Shown here in pieces: positions 37,190-42,068 of a stretch of DNA of 64,000 nt. The DNA comes from Gorillibacterium timonense (lineage in GTDB: Bacteria; Bacillota; Bacilli; Paenibacillales; NBRC-103111): the NCBI RefSeq assembly GCF_001457415.1, contig NZ_LN881724.1:1302001-1366000 (forward strand). The letters are read 5' to 3'. Both the position numbers and the translations under genes were made by a program. The number at the start of each line of letters is the position of its first letter. Positions within the stretch are counted from its first letter, which is position 1. Under the pieces are notes generated by a model. The model did no database searches. It was given only the letters and a program-made list of their open reading frames with translations, and was not told the origin of the DNA.

Positions 37190-38014
37190 TTATCCGTGCT
37201 TCTGAGAATAGAGGAATTCGCTCACCGCCTGGCTGCGCAGCAGGGTGATGCAGGCGAAGCAGGCATAAACGATTTCCGCTAGCATGACCGCTATGAACCA
37301 GCCTGGCAGCGGAACCGGACTGGAAGCCAACACATAGATGCCTGACAAGGCATTTAGCGCGAGCCCTGCGGCAAACAGGTAGCGAACCCAAACGACGCCC
37401 GCAAACAAAGCGAGAGACAAGGCGATGCTGATCAGCAGCGAAAACAGACGAAAGTGATAAAAGGAGGACAACAGAGCTAGCAGTACATTGATCGCTGCGA
37501 TGGCGATCACCGTCACCTTGCCTCGCAGGAATTGCCTTTCCTGGCGTTTGAGATATTGTCGGTATTCTTCTTCGCGTTCTTCCTTGCTGATGCCGTCCAG
37601 TCGTCCAAAGTCAGGCTCGATATCCCGAGCCGGAAGCGCGAGAGTCTCCGACAAGTCGCGGAGGCTGGCGGCCAGCATGGCCGCATCCGTAAGCTGGTCC
37701 ACCTGGACGGTGTTCAGCCTCTTGAGAATCGCATCCTTAGCCGTCACATCCGCGTCCAATTTCCTTCTGTATGTTTCTATGACTTCTTCAATCCGATCTG
37801 GCGTCTCCCGCATGATTCGGATTTCTTCAATAGTGAAGAACAGCTTACGGAGTTCGGCCACGGTTTCCAGCTCTGCTACATCCTGCTCTGAATAATCGCG
37901 GTATTCCCGGCCGCCCGAGATAGTTGTATGCGGATGAATAAGCCCTTGTTCTCCATAAAAGCGGACCGTCCGTTCCGTTAAACCGGTACGCGCGCACACT
38001 TCCTTTATTTTCAA
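37190..38014 (-). CDS. MerR-family regulator with C-terminal membrane domain
   Basis: The 274-residue protein starts with TTG at 38014, about 6 nt after GGAGGG. Residues 1-70 form a MerR winged helix (KIKEVCARTGLTERTVRFYG, LRKLFFTIEEIRIMRE), followed by a helical dimerisation stretch to about residue 160. From about residue 165 there are four hydrophobic segments (VTVIAIAAINVLLALLSSFY, LFSLLISIALSLALFAGVVW, YLFAAGLALNALSGIYVLAS, WFIAVMLAEIVYACFACITL). Most MerR proteins are soluble, so this one should be tethered to the membrane, perhaps sensing membrane state or a lipophilic ligand. Target genes are not evident. Confidence 0.85.
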   Translation of the reverse strand: MKIKEVCARTGLTERTVRFYGEQGLIHPHTTISGGREYRDYSEQDVAELETVAELRKLFFTIEEIRIMRETPDRIEEVIETYRRKLDADVTAKDAILKRLNTVQVDQLTDAAMLAASLRDLSETLALPARDIEPDFGRLDGISKEEREEEYRQYLKRQERQFLRGKVTVIAIAAINVLLALLSSFYHFRLFSLLISIALSLALFAGVVWVRYLFAAGLALNALSGIYVLASSPVPLPGWFIAVMLAEIVYACFACITLLRSQAVSEFLYSQKHG

Positions 38015-38275
38015 GAAATCCCTCCGTCCTTCCTAGAATATACCATACTCTCGATGGATTCGGCCCTACTATACAATCTTACGTAAGGGAAGTGTCAAGA
38101 AAAACATATGGATTCACCCTAATTCTGCTGTAAACTACCCATTGGCCCGGACAAGAAGCAGGATGAAACTAGAGATGAGTTTCAGGATGAGACGAATAGG
38201 TAACTAATGTGATGTGATGAACGGGTTTGGGAACGTGTAGAGAGAAGCTGCGGAGAGAAAGGTTGCACTTAAAAA

Positions 38276-38303
38276 CGTTATATCGTAATATTACGATATA
38301 ACG
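38276..38303. promoter_or_regulatory. 28-bp perfect palindrome, operator of the ArsR-type gene
   Basis: The stretch is identical to its own reverse complement over all 28 bases, centred on GTAATATTAC. A/T-rich palindromes of this kind are the usual operators of ArsR/SmtB-family repressors. It ends 22 nt before the ArsR-type start codon, so it should control the ArsR/CoA-disulfide-reductase operon. Confidence 0.85.
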
Positions 38304-38325
38304 ATAAAGAAGAGGTGCAAGGCAA

Positions 38326-38628
38326 ATGAATGAACCCGATTTCAAATCCTACACAGCTGCAGCCGAAATGCTGAAAGCTTTGGCCCACCCGGTGCGGCTC
38401 TGCATCGTGCGGGGTCTGCTTCAGAAGAAGCAATGCAACGTCAGCTATATGCAGGAATGCCTGAACCTCCCCCAATCCACCGTGTCCCAGCATCTGCAGA
38501 AGCTGCGAAGCGCAGGAATCGTGGAGACGGAGCGGAGCGGGCTGGAAATCAAATACACCATAGCGGATGAACGCGTGAAGCAGCTGATCGTCTTATTGCT
38601 GCCGAAGGAGGATGCGATCTATGAGTAA
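38326..38628 (+). CDS. ArsR-family repressor (candidate persulfide sensor)
   Basis: The 100-residue winged-helix protein has the ArsR DNA-recognition segment LPQSTVSQHLQKLRSAGIVE. Three cysteines (C26, C37, C45) lie in the N-terminal half. This is not the ELCVCDL metal site of ArsR/CadC. Cysteine pairs of this general type are used by SqrR/BigR-like sensors of reactive sulfur, and the partner gene encodes persulfide-handling domains. The persulfide-sensing role is therefore inferred from context. It overlaps the downstream gene by 8 nt. Confidence 0.85.
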   Translation: MNEPDFKSYTAAAEMLKALAHPVRLCIVRGLLQKKQCNVSYMQECLNLPQSTVSQHLQKLRSAGIVETERSGLEIKYTIADERVKQLIVLLLPKEDAIYE

Positions 38629-41179
38629 AAAGGTTCTGATCGTGGGAGGAGTAGCGGGAGGAGCTTCGGCGGCAGCACGGCTGCGCCGCCTCGATGAAGA
38701 TGCGGAGATCGTCTTGTTCGAGCGGGACGCTTATATTTCATTTGCCAACTGCGGGCTTCCCTACTATATCGGCGATGCCATCAAGGACCGCTCGAAGCTG
38801 CTCGTTCAAACGCCGGAGGCCATGCGCAGCCGGTTTCGTCTCGATGTAAGAACAGAGAGCGAAGTTGTCTCGATCGATCCGGTTGGCAAAACCGTCAAGG
38901 TCCGCAGCAGGGAGAGAGGCGACTACACCGAAAGCTACGACGCTTTGATCCTGTCTCCCGGAGCCAAGCCCGTTCGGCCGAACCTTCCCGGAATCGGTAG
39001 TCCTCTCATCCATTCCCTCCGAAACATTCCCGATACAGACCGCATCAAACAAAAGGTAATGGAGCAGGGGACCCAATCGGCTGTCGTGATCGGTGGAGGC
39101 TTCATCGGAGTAGAGATGGCCGAGAATTTGCGAGAGATCGGCATAAACGTTACCCTCGTGGAAGGCGGATCCCAGATTCTCGCGCCGTTCGATGCCGATA
39201 TGGCTGGCGCTCTCACCAAGGAGCTGGAGGAAAATGGAGTGAAGGTGCTTCTAGCCCAAACGGTGACGGCATTTCAAGAGAACGCGGGCGGACAGATCAC
39301 CGTTCAGCTTGGCAGCGGGCTGTCTTTGGTCAGCGACATCGCGATCCTGGCCATCGGGGTTGCTCCGGATACTTCTTTCCTCAAGGACAGTGGCCTGTTG
39401 CTCGGACCGCGCGGGCATATCCAGGTGGATGACTATTTGATGACGAATCTGGAGGACGTGTATGCGGTCGGGGACGCGGTGGAAATCACCGACTTCGTGA
39501 ACGGGAGCAAGGCGGCTATACCGTTGGCAGGCCCTGCGAACAAGCAGGGGAGAATCGCGGCTGACAACGTATGTGGGCTACGTACGGCTTACAAAGGCTC
39601 TCAAGGAACCTCTATCATCAAAGTGTTCAGCTTGACTGGGGCAGCAACGGGGAACAATGAGAAGACGCTGCAGAGGCTTGGAATTCCTTATCGGGTATCG
39701 ATCGTTCATCCGAGCTCTCATGCGTCCTACTATCCAGGATCTTCTCCCATGACCTTGAAGCTGCTATTCGGGAATGACGGGAAGGCGCTCGGCGCTCAAG
39801 GGATAGGGGTGAAGGGAGTCGACAAACGGATCGACGACTTGGCAACGGTCATTCGCTTTCGAGGCGCGGTCTCTGACCTTACGGAGCTCGAGCTTGCTTA
39901 TGCCCCACCTTTTTCCTCCGCGAAGGATCCGGTCAATATGGCTGGTTATGCGGCTGAAAATATTTTATATGGACGGACATCGGTGTATCTTCCTGTCGAT
40001 TTGAAGGAGCGGGACCCGCAGACGACCCTGCTTGTGGATGTGCGCAGCGAGCTGGAGCATGCGAACGGCCACATCCCGAATTCCATCAACATACCCGTAG
40101 ATGATCTCCGGGGTCGCTTGAACGAGCTCGATTCCACCAAGGAAATCTGGGTCTACTGTCAGGTGGGGCTGAGAGGCTACACCGCTTCTCGTATCCTTCA
40201 GCAAAAGGGCTTCCGCGTTCGCAACCTCACCGGTGGCTATCGGACCTATCAAATGGCCGTTTATCAGCCGGGACAAGGGGATGAGGGCAGCTTGCAGTTG
40301 GGAAGCTCCGTCTTCTCCGCAGGGGCAGAGCGGCAAATCGTGGCGGCGGTGGAATCGGGCTCGAGCAGAGAGACCGCAACGGTCTGCTCGTTGGCTGATG
40401 CCTCCGCTGCGCAAGGACTGACCGGCGAGATTGCCGCCGATTTCGAGCTGGACGCTTGCGGCCTCTGCTGCCCGGGACCACTCGTGCAGGTGAAGCAACG
40501 GATGGAAGAGATGAAGGCGGGGCAGGTGCTGCGCGTGACCGCCTCTGACCCCGGCTTCTATCGGGATATCGAAGCTTGGGCCGGGATGGCCCGGCAGGAG
40601 CTTCTTCGCGTGAGCAAAAATCCGGATGGCGTGATCGAAGCTTACCTTCGCAAGCGGGGATTGGATGCTGCTCCCGCTTCGGCTGTACCGGCCGTAAGCG
40701 AAGCCACTCCGGAAGGAAGCACGATGGTTGTCTTCAGCGGCGATCTGGACAAAGCCATCGCCTCCTTCATCATCGCGAACGGCGCAGCGGCGAGCGGTAA
40801 GAAGGTGACCCTGTTCTTCACCTTCTGGGGGCTCAACATCATCCGCAAGACGGGCAAGGTGCGCGTCTCTAAATCCTTCATCGGCCGCATGTTCGGCCAA
40901 ATGATGCCGAGAGGCAGCCGCAAGCTCGGCCTGTCTCGGATGAACCTGCTGGGAATGGGGCCGAAGATGATCCGCGGGGTCATGAAGAGCAGGAATGTTT
41001 CGTCCTTAGAGGAACTCATCGATACGGCGATCAAGCAAGGCGTGGAGCTCGTTGCCTGTCAAATGTCGATGGACGTCATGGGAATTCAACAGGAAGAACT
41101 GCTCGACGGTGTTCAAGTTGCCGGCGTCGGATATTATCTCGGGAAAGCAGACCGTTCGTCCGTGAACTTGTTTATCTAG
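38621..41179 (+). CDS. Four-domain CoA-disulfide/persulfide reductase-rhodanese-TusA-DsrE fusion
   Basis: This 852-residue protein begins at ATG 38621, 9 nt after AAGGAGG. Residues 1 to about 445 are a flavin-dependent CoA-disulfide/persulfide reductase (GGVAGGASAAARLRR dinucleotide motif; redox cysteine C44 in SFANCGLPYY). Residues about 460-555 are a rhodanese with loop cysteine C513 (VYCQVGLRGYT). Residues about 608-680 are a TusA/SirA sulfur carrier (DACGLCCPGP, C617). Residues about 695-852 are a DsrE-like domain with C813 (ACQMSMDVMG). All key cysteines are retained, so sulfur could pass between domains in one chain. The likely task is detoxifying or using persulfides and polysulfides under the ArsR-type repressor. 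Confidence 0.93.
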   Translation: MSKKVLIVGGVAGGASAAARLRRLDEDAEIVLFERDAYISFANCGLPYYIGDAIKDRSKLLVQTPEAMRSRFRLDVRTESEVVSIDPVGKTVKVRSRERGDYTESYDALILSPGAKPVRPNLPGIGSPLIHSLRNIPDTDRIKQKVMEQGTQSAVVIGGGFIGVEMAENLREIGINVTLVEGGSQILAPFDADMAGALTKELEENGVKVLLAQTVTAFQENAGGQITVQLGSGLSLVSDIAILAIGVAPDTSFLKDSGLLLGPRGHIQVDDYLMTNLEDVYAVGDAVEITDFVNGSKAAIPLAGPANKQGRIAADNVCGLRTAYKGSQGTSIIKVFSLTGAATGNNEKTLQRLGIPYRVSIVHPSSHASYYPGSSPMTLKLLFGNDGKALGAQGIGVKGVDKRIDDLATVIRFRGAVSDLTELELAYAPPFSSAKDPVNMAGYAAENILYGRTSVYLPVDLKERDPQTTLLVDVRSELEHANGHIPNSINIPVDDLRGRLNELDSTKEIWVYCQVGLRGYTASRILQQKGFRVRNLTGGYRTYQMAVYQPGQGDEGSLQLGSSVFSAGAERQIVAAVESGSSRETATVCSLADASAAQGLTGEIAADFELDACGLCCPGPLVQVKQRMEEMKAGQVLRVTASDPGFYRDIEAWAGMARQELLRVSKNPDGVIEAYLRKRGLDAAPASAVPAVSEATPEGSTMVVFSGDLDKAIASFIIANGAAASGKKVTLFFTFWGLNIIRKTGKVRVSKSFIGRMFGQMMPRGSRKLGLSRMNLLGMGPKMIRGVMKSRNVSSLEELIDTAIKQGVELVACQMSMDVMGIQQEELLDGVQVAGVGYYLGKADRSSVNLFI

Positions 41180-41203
41180 TAAGCTGTCAGCAGGTCATGC
41201 AGG

Positions 41204-41246
41204 ATCAACGTCCGGGTTTATGGGTAACGCCATGAGCCCGGTTGAT
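41204..41246 (+). terminator. Hairpin after the persulfide reductase gene
   Basis: ATCAA..CCGGGTTTATGG (from 41204) pairs with CCATGAGCCCGGTTGAT (to 41246) with a 3-nt bulge and G-U pairs. There is no T run, so it is a weak terminator candidate. Confidence 0.4.
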
Positions 41247-41309
41247 TACTGCTCAAATCCGCAATCAGGTGTATAATCATGGAAATCGGACAGATAAGGA
41301 TGAAGTGAA

Positions 41310-42068
41310 ATGAACAAGTCGGACCCGTTTGCGCAATCAGCGGACGCCTATCTGCAATACACCGAGATGCCGTGGGGACGGTTATTTTACCAGACCGCTT
41401 GGCATCAGATCGATCACCATTTTATCCGTAACGGGCAGACCGTACTGGATGTCGGCAGCGGATTCGGATTAACGACGGAGCATTATGCGGCCAAAGGAAA
41501 CGATGTGACCGGAATTGAGCCATCCGCAGCCTTATTGGCGAAGGCCGCCGAACGGAATTCCTCGGTGCATTTCATCTGCCGGAGCTTTGAGGAGATGGAT
41601 GACCTTGAGCGTCCGTTCGATTGGATTTTTTGCCATAACGTCTTGGAATATGTGGAGAGCCCTCAGGCCTTTTTATCCCGACTCGGCCGCTGTCAGAACC
41701 CGGGGGGTTATCTCTCCCTCATCGCCCACAACCCTGCGGGGAAGGTCATGAAGAAAGCGATCATCCTGAAAGACCCGGAGGCTGCGCTTGTTGGCTTGGA
41801 TCAAGACCAGGAGTACAGTGGGATCATTCGGACGGCTATCACCACCTATCCCCGCGAACGCTTGACGGAATGGCTGGAGGGGGAAGGCTATGAGCTTGTC
41901 GAGTACTATGGAATTCATAATCTGTACGGTTATATTGCGGATAACGAAATCAAGCGTGATGAGGCTTGGCACGAAAAGGCGACGGCCATGGAGCTTGCGC
42001 TTGGGGAACGCAGCCCGTTCAGAGACGTTTCGGTATTCACTCACTTGATCGCAAGAAAGCGAGGGTGA
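41310..42068 (+). CDS. SAM-dependent methyltransferase (class I)
   Basis: The 252-residue protein carries the class I SAM-binding motif I VLDVGSGFGLT and the following acidic residue in VTGIEPS, plus FDWIFCHNVLEY as motif IV. The overall pattern (start DPFAQSADAYLQYTEMPWGR, then LIAHNPAGKVMKKAI) resembles the SmtA/CmoM group that methylates 5-carboxymethoxyuridine in tRNA, but this is a resemblance, not proof. The VOC-family gene follows on the same strand after about 50 nt, and the two may be cotranscribed. Confidence 0.82.
   Translation: MNKSDPFAQSADAYLQYTEMPWGRLFYQTAWHQIDHHFIRNGQTVLDVGSGFGLTTEHYAAKGNDVTGIEPSAALLAKAAERNSSVHFICRSFEEMDDLERPFDWIFCHNVLEYVESPQAFLSRLGRCQNPGGYLSLIAHNPAGKVMKKAIILKDPEAALVGLDQDQEYSGIIRTAITTYPRERLTEWLEGEGYELVEYYGIHNLYGYIADNEIKRDEAWHEKATAMELALGERSPFRDVSVFTHLIARKRG

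Follow-up and report, generated by a model that had tools for sequence, protein, structure and literature searches.

Comparative evidence links a palindromic promoter site and an ArsR-family repressor to a predicted four-domain CoA-persulfide reductase in Bacillota

At positions 38,276–41,179 of the window, by which we mean the 64,000-nucleotide stretch of Gorillibacterium timonense DNA analyzed here (contig NZ_LN881724.1, positions 1,302,001 to 1,366,000), a palindrome precedes a two-gene operon, arsR and then a gene that fuses coenzyme A (CoA)-disulfide reductase (CoADR), rhodanese, TusA and DsrE domains. The best explanation of this arrangement, which we hold with moderate confidence, is that ArsR represses its own operon at the −10 box, that sulfane sulfur relieves repression through cysteines C26 and C45, and that the enzyme reduces sulfane sulfur. 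Control of the operon by this ArsR is well supported by sequence comparison, because the site precedes the enzyme gene where arsR is unlinked or lies second and is lacking at eight enzyme loci that have no such ArsR nearby. The predicted function of the repressor is likely sulfane-sulfur sensing, and the pair probably lets Bacillota cells sense and remove reactive sulfur. The two genes are:

38326..38628, plus strand: ArsR-family repressor, 100 amino acids (aa), with C26 in helix 2, C37, and C45 in helix 3 (open reading frame and Pfam)
38621..41179, plus strand: CoADR-rhodanese-TusA-DsrE2 fusion, 852 aa, starting 8 nt inside the end of arsR

The open reading frame of the fusion extends over 38612–41179. 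Its likely start is the ATG at 38621, which gives an N terminus (MSKKVLIVGG) matching those of the orthologs and is preceded by GGAGG; if this codon is used, the genes overlap by 8 nt. The promoter region contains three elements, for which conservation is given among 80 related sites:

38263..38268, plus strand: −35 element TTGCAC of the arsR promoter, 17 nt before TAATAT; TTG kept at 77, 75 and 75 of 80 sites
38276..38303, no strand: 28-bp perfect palindrome, the predicted operator, within a conserved block at 38273–38306
38286..38291, plus strand: −10 element TAATAT at the palindrome centre; T80 A79 A66 T80 A79 T79 of 80 sites

A first-pass annotation of the sequence had described the palindrome as perfect over 28 bp and unusually long for its family. 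The first statement was borne out: all 14 pairs of CGTTATATCGTAATATTACGATATAACG (38276–38303) match, and no second copy of it or of its 22-bp core was found in the 5.26-Mb genome with up to three mismatches allowed. It is the sole inverted repeat reported within 37600–41800 (arms of at least 10 nt, gap of at most 60 nt), and arithmetic on even base use (64000/4^14) predicts ∼2e-4 perfect 28-bp palindromes per window. The arsR start codon lies 22 nt downstream of its end. The second statement did not survive comparison. The palindromic site spans the same extent in relatives as in the window, and the "imperfect 12-2-12 inverted repeats model" of ArsR sites, cited in the accessible part of PMC7965956 (where the motifs reported misfit), amounts to 26 bp. 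Perfect 28-bp symmetry is found in 4 of the 80 sites, the window's included, with ∼0.7 expected from independent columns.

The core, TATATCGTAATATTACGATATA, was matched at 16 or more of its 22 positions in 80 of 81 arsR upstream regions, those of the window and of 80 ArsR-derived loci (the 80 best among 395, almost all from Paenibacillaceae according to their titles). The lone region without it belongs to a Clostridium (L062) with no CoADR in its locus. At the same threshold, the core occurred in 2 of 800 mononucleotide-shuffled upstream regions and at five other places in 954 kb, one of them an 18/22 site ahead of a rhodanese pair (L051). The consensus carries ∼42 bits over 34 columns and is palindromic too: ATC-nn-TATATCGTAATATTACGATATA-nn-GAT. 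Its best-conserved block is TAATAT at the dyad, preceded by a 17-nt spacer and a −35 element whose most common form is TTGAC; the window's own promoter, TTGCAC-N17-TAATAT, has a poorer −35 than most relatives. Judged from sequence, TAATAT is the predicted −10 box of a sigma-A-type promoter, and a repressor seated on the dyad would therefore cover it. These features support the palindrome as the candidate operator-promoter of arsR and the fusion gene. A terminator scan did list it as a minus-strand terminator-like site, but a role as RNA hairpin or terminator, in place of a DNA operator, is extremely improbable. The −10 box stands at its centre, so that most of the palindrome lies upstream of or at the transcription start; 76 of 80 sites keep the sequence without being perfectly symmetric; and the A-run that would supply a T tail is not conserved. 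We rejected the RNA role on these three counts.

Linkage of site, repressor and enzyme was examined across genomes. The CoADR gene is present in 76 of the 80 ArsR loci (71 with all four domains in a single frame, four with CoADR-rhodanese only, one without DsrE) and missing from four. In a survey of 296 genomes of the order (ArsR at E ≤1e-20, site with at most three mismatches), 120 had an ArsR match and 104 a site match: both in 90, ArsR only in 30, site only in 14 and neither in 162. The odds ratio for co-occurrence is 35 (p 3e-34, kinship among genomes being ignored), and the site pattern read backwards, used as a control, matched in 9 of 296. Genomes in which the operon is rearranged bear on the target of the site. 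In all four sampled members of one genus (G008, G016, G021 and G025), arsR is unlinked, a 19–21/22 site lies just upstream of a CoADR-rhodanese gene (556–585 aa) and arsR has a weaker nearby site (16–17/22). In G026 (L185, 1929–5999), one 20/22 site is flanked on one side by a CoADR-rhodanese-TusA gene and on the other by divergent tusA-, dsrE- and rhodanese-like genes, named by sequence reading; by its gene content, L185 is the apparent split-operon counterpart of the fusion. The claim that the palindrome controls arsR and the fusion thus gains comparative support from the conserved site, its central −10 and its tracking of the enzyme and ArsR.

The association extends to the phylum. An enzyme search matched 91 of 299 Bacillota genomes at E ≤1e-150. 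In 29 phylum enzyme loci (L119–L147), 23 genes encode the four domains in a single frame, five encode CoADR-rhodanese only and one lacks DsrE. An ArsR of this kind lies within ∼1.5 kb of the enzyme match in 20 of the 29 and is missing from the fetched flanks of nine. The site is present in one of those nine (L124, which is G026); in the other eight (L128, L129, L135–L138, L142 and L147) the best upstream match was 11–14/22, not exceeding that of shuffles, with only 119 bases available to the scan in L128. In L139–L141, which all belong to a single genus from outside the order, the fusion comes first and arsR second; a 20/22 site precedes the fusion and no such site precedes arsR itself. The ArsR search matched 63 of 299 Bacillota genomes. 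Among the best-scoring 28 newly fetched phylum ArsR loci (L186–L213), CoADR is present in the flanks of 23, and a combined promoter-plus-half-site score of at least 13/17 was reached upstream of arsR in 18, versus 4% of shuffles. By these counts the predicted four-domain enzyme is common in Bacillota, the fusion is widespread and would be no oddity of the source genome, and the ArsR-enzyme pairing appears old. Spread by plasmids was considered and rejected: only 4 of 72,556 plasmid records match, on replicons of 0.5–2.7 Mb predicted to be non-mobilizable.

The repressor belongs to the ArsR/SmtB family by PF01022 (37.7 bits, cut-off 22) and NF033788 (88.1 bits, cut-off 55), and the best structural (VIA) matches of its model are ArsR proteins. 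In the AlphaFold2 model (mean predicted local distance difference test score, pLDDT, 87.7), C26 lies in a helix at 22–34 and C45 ends a helix at 39–46; the predicted DNA-reading helix, 50–62, follows C45, and helix 5 spans 82–91. The three cysteines noted in the first-pass annotation, C26, C37 and C45, are indeed those of the window's ArsR, but only C26 and C45 proved near-invariant. All three are present throughout the first 80 loci, which were found partly with peptide seeds holding C26 and C37, so that later sets, which overlap in part, test the cysteines more fairly. All three are kept in 29 of 29 order loci. Among ArsRs reached via the enzyme, C26 and C45 are kept in 20 of 20 and C37 in 14 (A in five, Y in one); in other order loci the pair is kept in 14 of 15, the exception being L183 (Y45); and in the phylum ArsR loci it is kept in 28 of 28, with C37 in 25. 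On these alignments, the near-invariant cysteines appear to be two and C37 dispensable. Two ArsR copies, L181 and L183, have sites of 22/22 and 20/22, with CoADR missing from the 6 kb examined.

The placement of these cysteines differs from that in the ArsR sensors compared. As described in the accessible part of PMC10509353, known metal sensors (sequence similarity network cluster 1) use a CXC motif in helix 3, and known persulfide sensors a cysteine pair split between helices 2 and 5; further ArsR metal sites, beyond those compared here, are mentioned there. The window's ArsR has no CXC motif, in line with the earlier remark that the classical metal site is absent, and has neither histidine nor cysteine in helix 5. 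Its score against the BigR model NF040642 is 62 bits (cut-off 155). In alignment, the helix-2 cysteine of BigR, C42 in its own numbering, falls three positions after C26. A BigR-like second cysteine was sought at C97, which is present in 29 of 81 aligned rows, absent from the window's ArsR and not general. The closest solved structure by sequence is PagR of Bacillus anthracis (root-mean-square deviation 1.1 over 87 residues, 46% identity), which unlike this ArsR has K, L and I where C26, C37 and C45 stand. C26/C45 therefore seem to differ from every known ArsR cysteine or metal site compared here. Sensing of soft metals or metalloids through C26/C45 (and C37) would suit the family, the match to an NCBIfam metalloregulator subfamily and the three cysteines of the window's ArsR. 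We regard it as quite improbable, given the missing CXC and helix 5 histidine, the loss of C37 in some relatives and the persulfide-type reductase that adjoins arsR in 23 of 28 phylum loci.

The enzyme encoded downstream comprises four parts:

38627..39922, plus strand: FAD/NAD(P)H CoA-disulfide/persulfide reductase part with C44 (Pfam Pyr_redox_2 and Pyr_redox_dim; structures 3icr, 3nta and 8a56)
40019..40252, plus strand: rhodanese domain with C513 (PF00581); C513 in 71/71 and 23/23
40445..40654, plus strand: TusA domain with C617 in CCPGP (PF01206); C617 in 71/71 and 23/23
40721..41173, plus strand: DsrE2-like domain with C813 (PF13686; structure 3pnx); C813 in 71/71 and 22/23 (one gap)

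The proposal of a four-domain fusion was upheld, as Pyr_redox_2, Pyr_redox_dim, Rhodanese, TusA and DrsE_2 all score above their gathering thresholds. So was the statement that C44, C513, C617 and C813 are kept. They are the only invariant ones among the eight cysteines (44, 318, 513, 589, 613, 616, 617 and 813 in the 852-aa numbering) across 71 four-domain relatives and 23 from the phylum, the gaps being C44 in a frame-split copy (L078) and C813 in one phylum relative; C318, C589, C613 and C616 vary. Residues 5–549 align over nearly the whole length of B. anthracis CoADR-RHD (3icr, E 7e-169) and Shewanella Npsr (3nta, E 7e-162) and also match Enterococcus faecalis CoAPR (8a56). With this full-length match and both the reductase and the rhodanese cysteines, the protein falls among the CoADR-rhodanese or CoA-persulfide reductases; against the CoA-disulfide reductase model TIGR03385 it reached 475.9 bits, below the cut-off of 578.8. 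The TusA domain scores 68.9 bits (cut-off 28.6) and keeps C617 in CPxP, which we take to be the TusA motif. The last domain scores 211 bits with PF13686 (cut-off 25), yet 82.2 with NF047629 (cut-off 210), and residues 704–855 align with the DsrE structure 3pnx. Confidence in the model of the whole fusion is too low for reading distances between domains: pLDDT is 72 and the predicted template modelling score 0.54, and pLDDT falls below 50 in the linkers and around C44 and the TusA cysteine. Two relatives are split with domain order kept: in L021 (6292–8805), DsrE follows CoADR-rhodanese-TusA after an in-frame TAA, and in L031 (6309–8776), TusA-DsrE follows CoADR-rhodanese in another frame. Both splits fall near domain borders, and sequencing errors are possible.

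CstR is a CsoR-family protein, not an ArsR, and CstA belongs to the CstR regulon. These proteins are among the closest systems known. In the accessible part of PMC9405070, E. faecalis CoAPR reduces CoA persulfide (CoASSH) to H2S under CstR, a repressor responsive to reactive sulfur species (RSS); as here, an RSS-sensing dithiol repressor would control a CoADR-rhodanese. The active cysteines of CoAPR lie 26.6 Å apart, and bound CoA is proposed there to swing sulfur on its pantothenate arm from rhodanese to reductase. Unlike the fusion, the CoAPR chain (8a56, 571 residues) is too short to accommodate TusA and DsrE domains as well, and the 3icr and 3nta chains have no such tail. Staphylococcus aureus CstA resembles the fusion in having RHOD, TusA and DsrE homologs in one polypeptide, but no reductase domain is told of in the accessible part of PMC9918477; by analogy, the fusion would in effect be CoAPR with a CstA-like tail. 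SqrR, BigR and HlyU (ArsR sequence similarity network cluster 4) share the ArsR fold (Z 12.9–15.7) and a helix-2 cysteine, and sulfur genes occur in several of their regulons (PMC10509353, accessible part); their second cysteine, however, is in helix 5 and not in helix 3. Persulfide sensors of this cluster form a polysulfide bridge and come off the DNA with persulfides. In the Thermococcales, a cysteine switch in the ArsR-like winged helix of SurR derepresses the sulfur reductase Nsr with S0, although this archaeal system has a protein with two winged helix-turn-helix domains, a CxxC switch and another DNA motif (PMC12162507, accessible part). The circuit proposed here would operate in the manner of CstR-CoAPR and SurR-Nsr, but its repressor lacks the defining SqrR/BigR cysteine pattern and is not a CsoR protein. 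Among the literature hits listed, no title or abstract start names this ArsR-CoADR pairing, which is weak evidence as most subscription journals lay outside the coverage. The operon is a conserved and apparently undescribed variation on a known theme, in which a thiol-based repressor would control a CoA-persulfide reductase.

Comparison supplies the putative operator, its overlap with the promoter, the operon, its target and six conserved cysteines; from these we infer repression, the inducer, the roles of C26 and C45, and the flow of sulfur between domains. An ArsR dimer would bind the palindrome over the −10 box and block transcription of arsR and the fusion. Accumulating sulfane sulfur (persulfides, CoA persulfide, polysulfide) would modify or cross-link C26 and C45, the latter where helix 3 ends and the DNA-reading helix is about to begin; the modified ArsR would leave the DNA and the enzyme would be made. 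Sulfane sulfur would be loaded onto the cysteines of rhodanese (C513), TusA (C617) and DsrE (C813), and the FAD reductase (C44), drawing on NAD(P)H, would release it as H2S, with bound CoA serving as the swinging arm. This release would end the signal and close the feedback loop. It is unlikely, in our view, that ArsR instead senses disulfide or peroxide stress (e.g., CoA disulfide) through a C26–C45 disulfide, with the enzyme mainly a CoA-disulfide reductase. Two conserved cysteines suit a disulfide switch, and CoA-disulfide reductase models match the reductase part at scores short of their cut-offs. RexT is an ArsR-type H2O2 sensor that switches by disulfide (PMC8960804, accessible part), but it does so with adjacent cysteines on helix 3, and no adjacent CC pair exists in this ArsR. 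Furthermore, a disulfide reductase needs no sulfurtransferases, whereas the partner domains and split-operon genes are rhodanese, TusA and DsrE.

Several observations weigh against the preferred explanation. In fourteen genomes of the order the site is present although no ArsR passes the cut-off. Twenty sites away from arsR were fetched among the matches listed; four precede CoADR-rhodanese, all in one genus, and 16 adjoin genes without obvious sulfur role, by reading azoreductase-like (two), GNAT-like (two), MarR-like, DoxX-like and others. In the phylum set, CoADR is absent from the flanks fetched for 5 of 28 ArsR loci, with rhodanese present in one of the five and DsrE in one, and 10 of 28 fall below 13/17 for the promoter site, three of them loci in which arsR follows the enzyme. 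Six weaker ArsR matches, all scoring <85 bits, are other paralogs in which the cysteine pair is incomplete, and they were left out of the enzyme-derived count. L183, with CoADR missing from its 6 kb, has Y at position 45 yet a 20/22 site, as if its sensor were decaying or retuned. Finally, C26 may face helix 5 and not C45, given its position relative to the BigR cysteine.

The named ArsR persulfide sensors are proteobacterial and have their cysteines arranged in a single geometry, according to the accessible part of PMC10509353. We put forward, tentatively and as somewhat short of probable, that the present family is a new class of ArsR sulfane-sulfur sensor in Bacillota, with a helix 2/helix 3 pair (C26/C45), an operator at the −10 and a CoA-persulfide reductase fused stepwise with its own carriers. 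If persulfide is indeed sensed by a different pair, RSS sensing evolved more than once in the ArsR fold, and for many Bacillota a sulfur regulon can be predicted whose operator, target and two cysteines are defined. The fusion and its relatives with separate-gene domains near the same site offer a natural experiment on whether sulfur is passed on faster in the fused form. Because the core is unique in the source genome, the regulon there most likely has a single target. A wider regulon was considered and set aside, the 16 extra sites without clear sulfur link looking like chance or other regulators.

The operon is flanked on the left by a divergent MerR-type gene (37190–38014, complement) and on the right by a methyltransferase gene starting at 41310, both named by sequence reading. 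The source genome also carries a second CoADR/NADH-oxidase-like enzyme (31% identity; G000:C6:582501-583823) and a separate DsrE2-like protein (38%; G000:C7:2140872-2141357). A PHROGs search gave one weak match. In L160 and L161, a related site with TTGAC (also listed for G245) precedes an azoreductase-like gene and perhaps serves another repressor with a similar site. One arsR in G100 has two upstream sites 84 nt apart (C2:24040 and 24124). In L182 (3–3614), CoADR-rhodanese lies near DsrE-, CsoR/CstR- and rhodanese-like genes, so that by these read names two kinds of sulfur regulator stand side by side.

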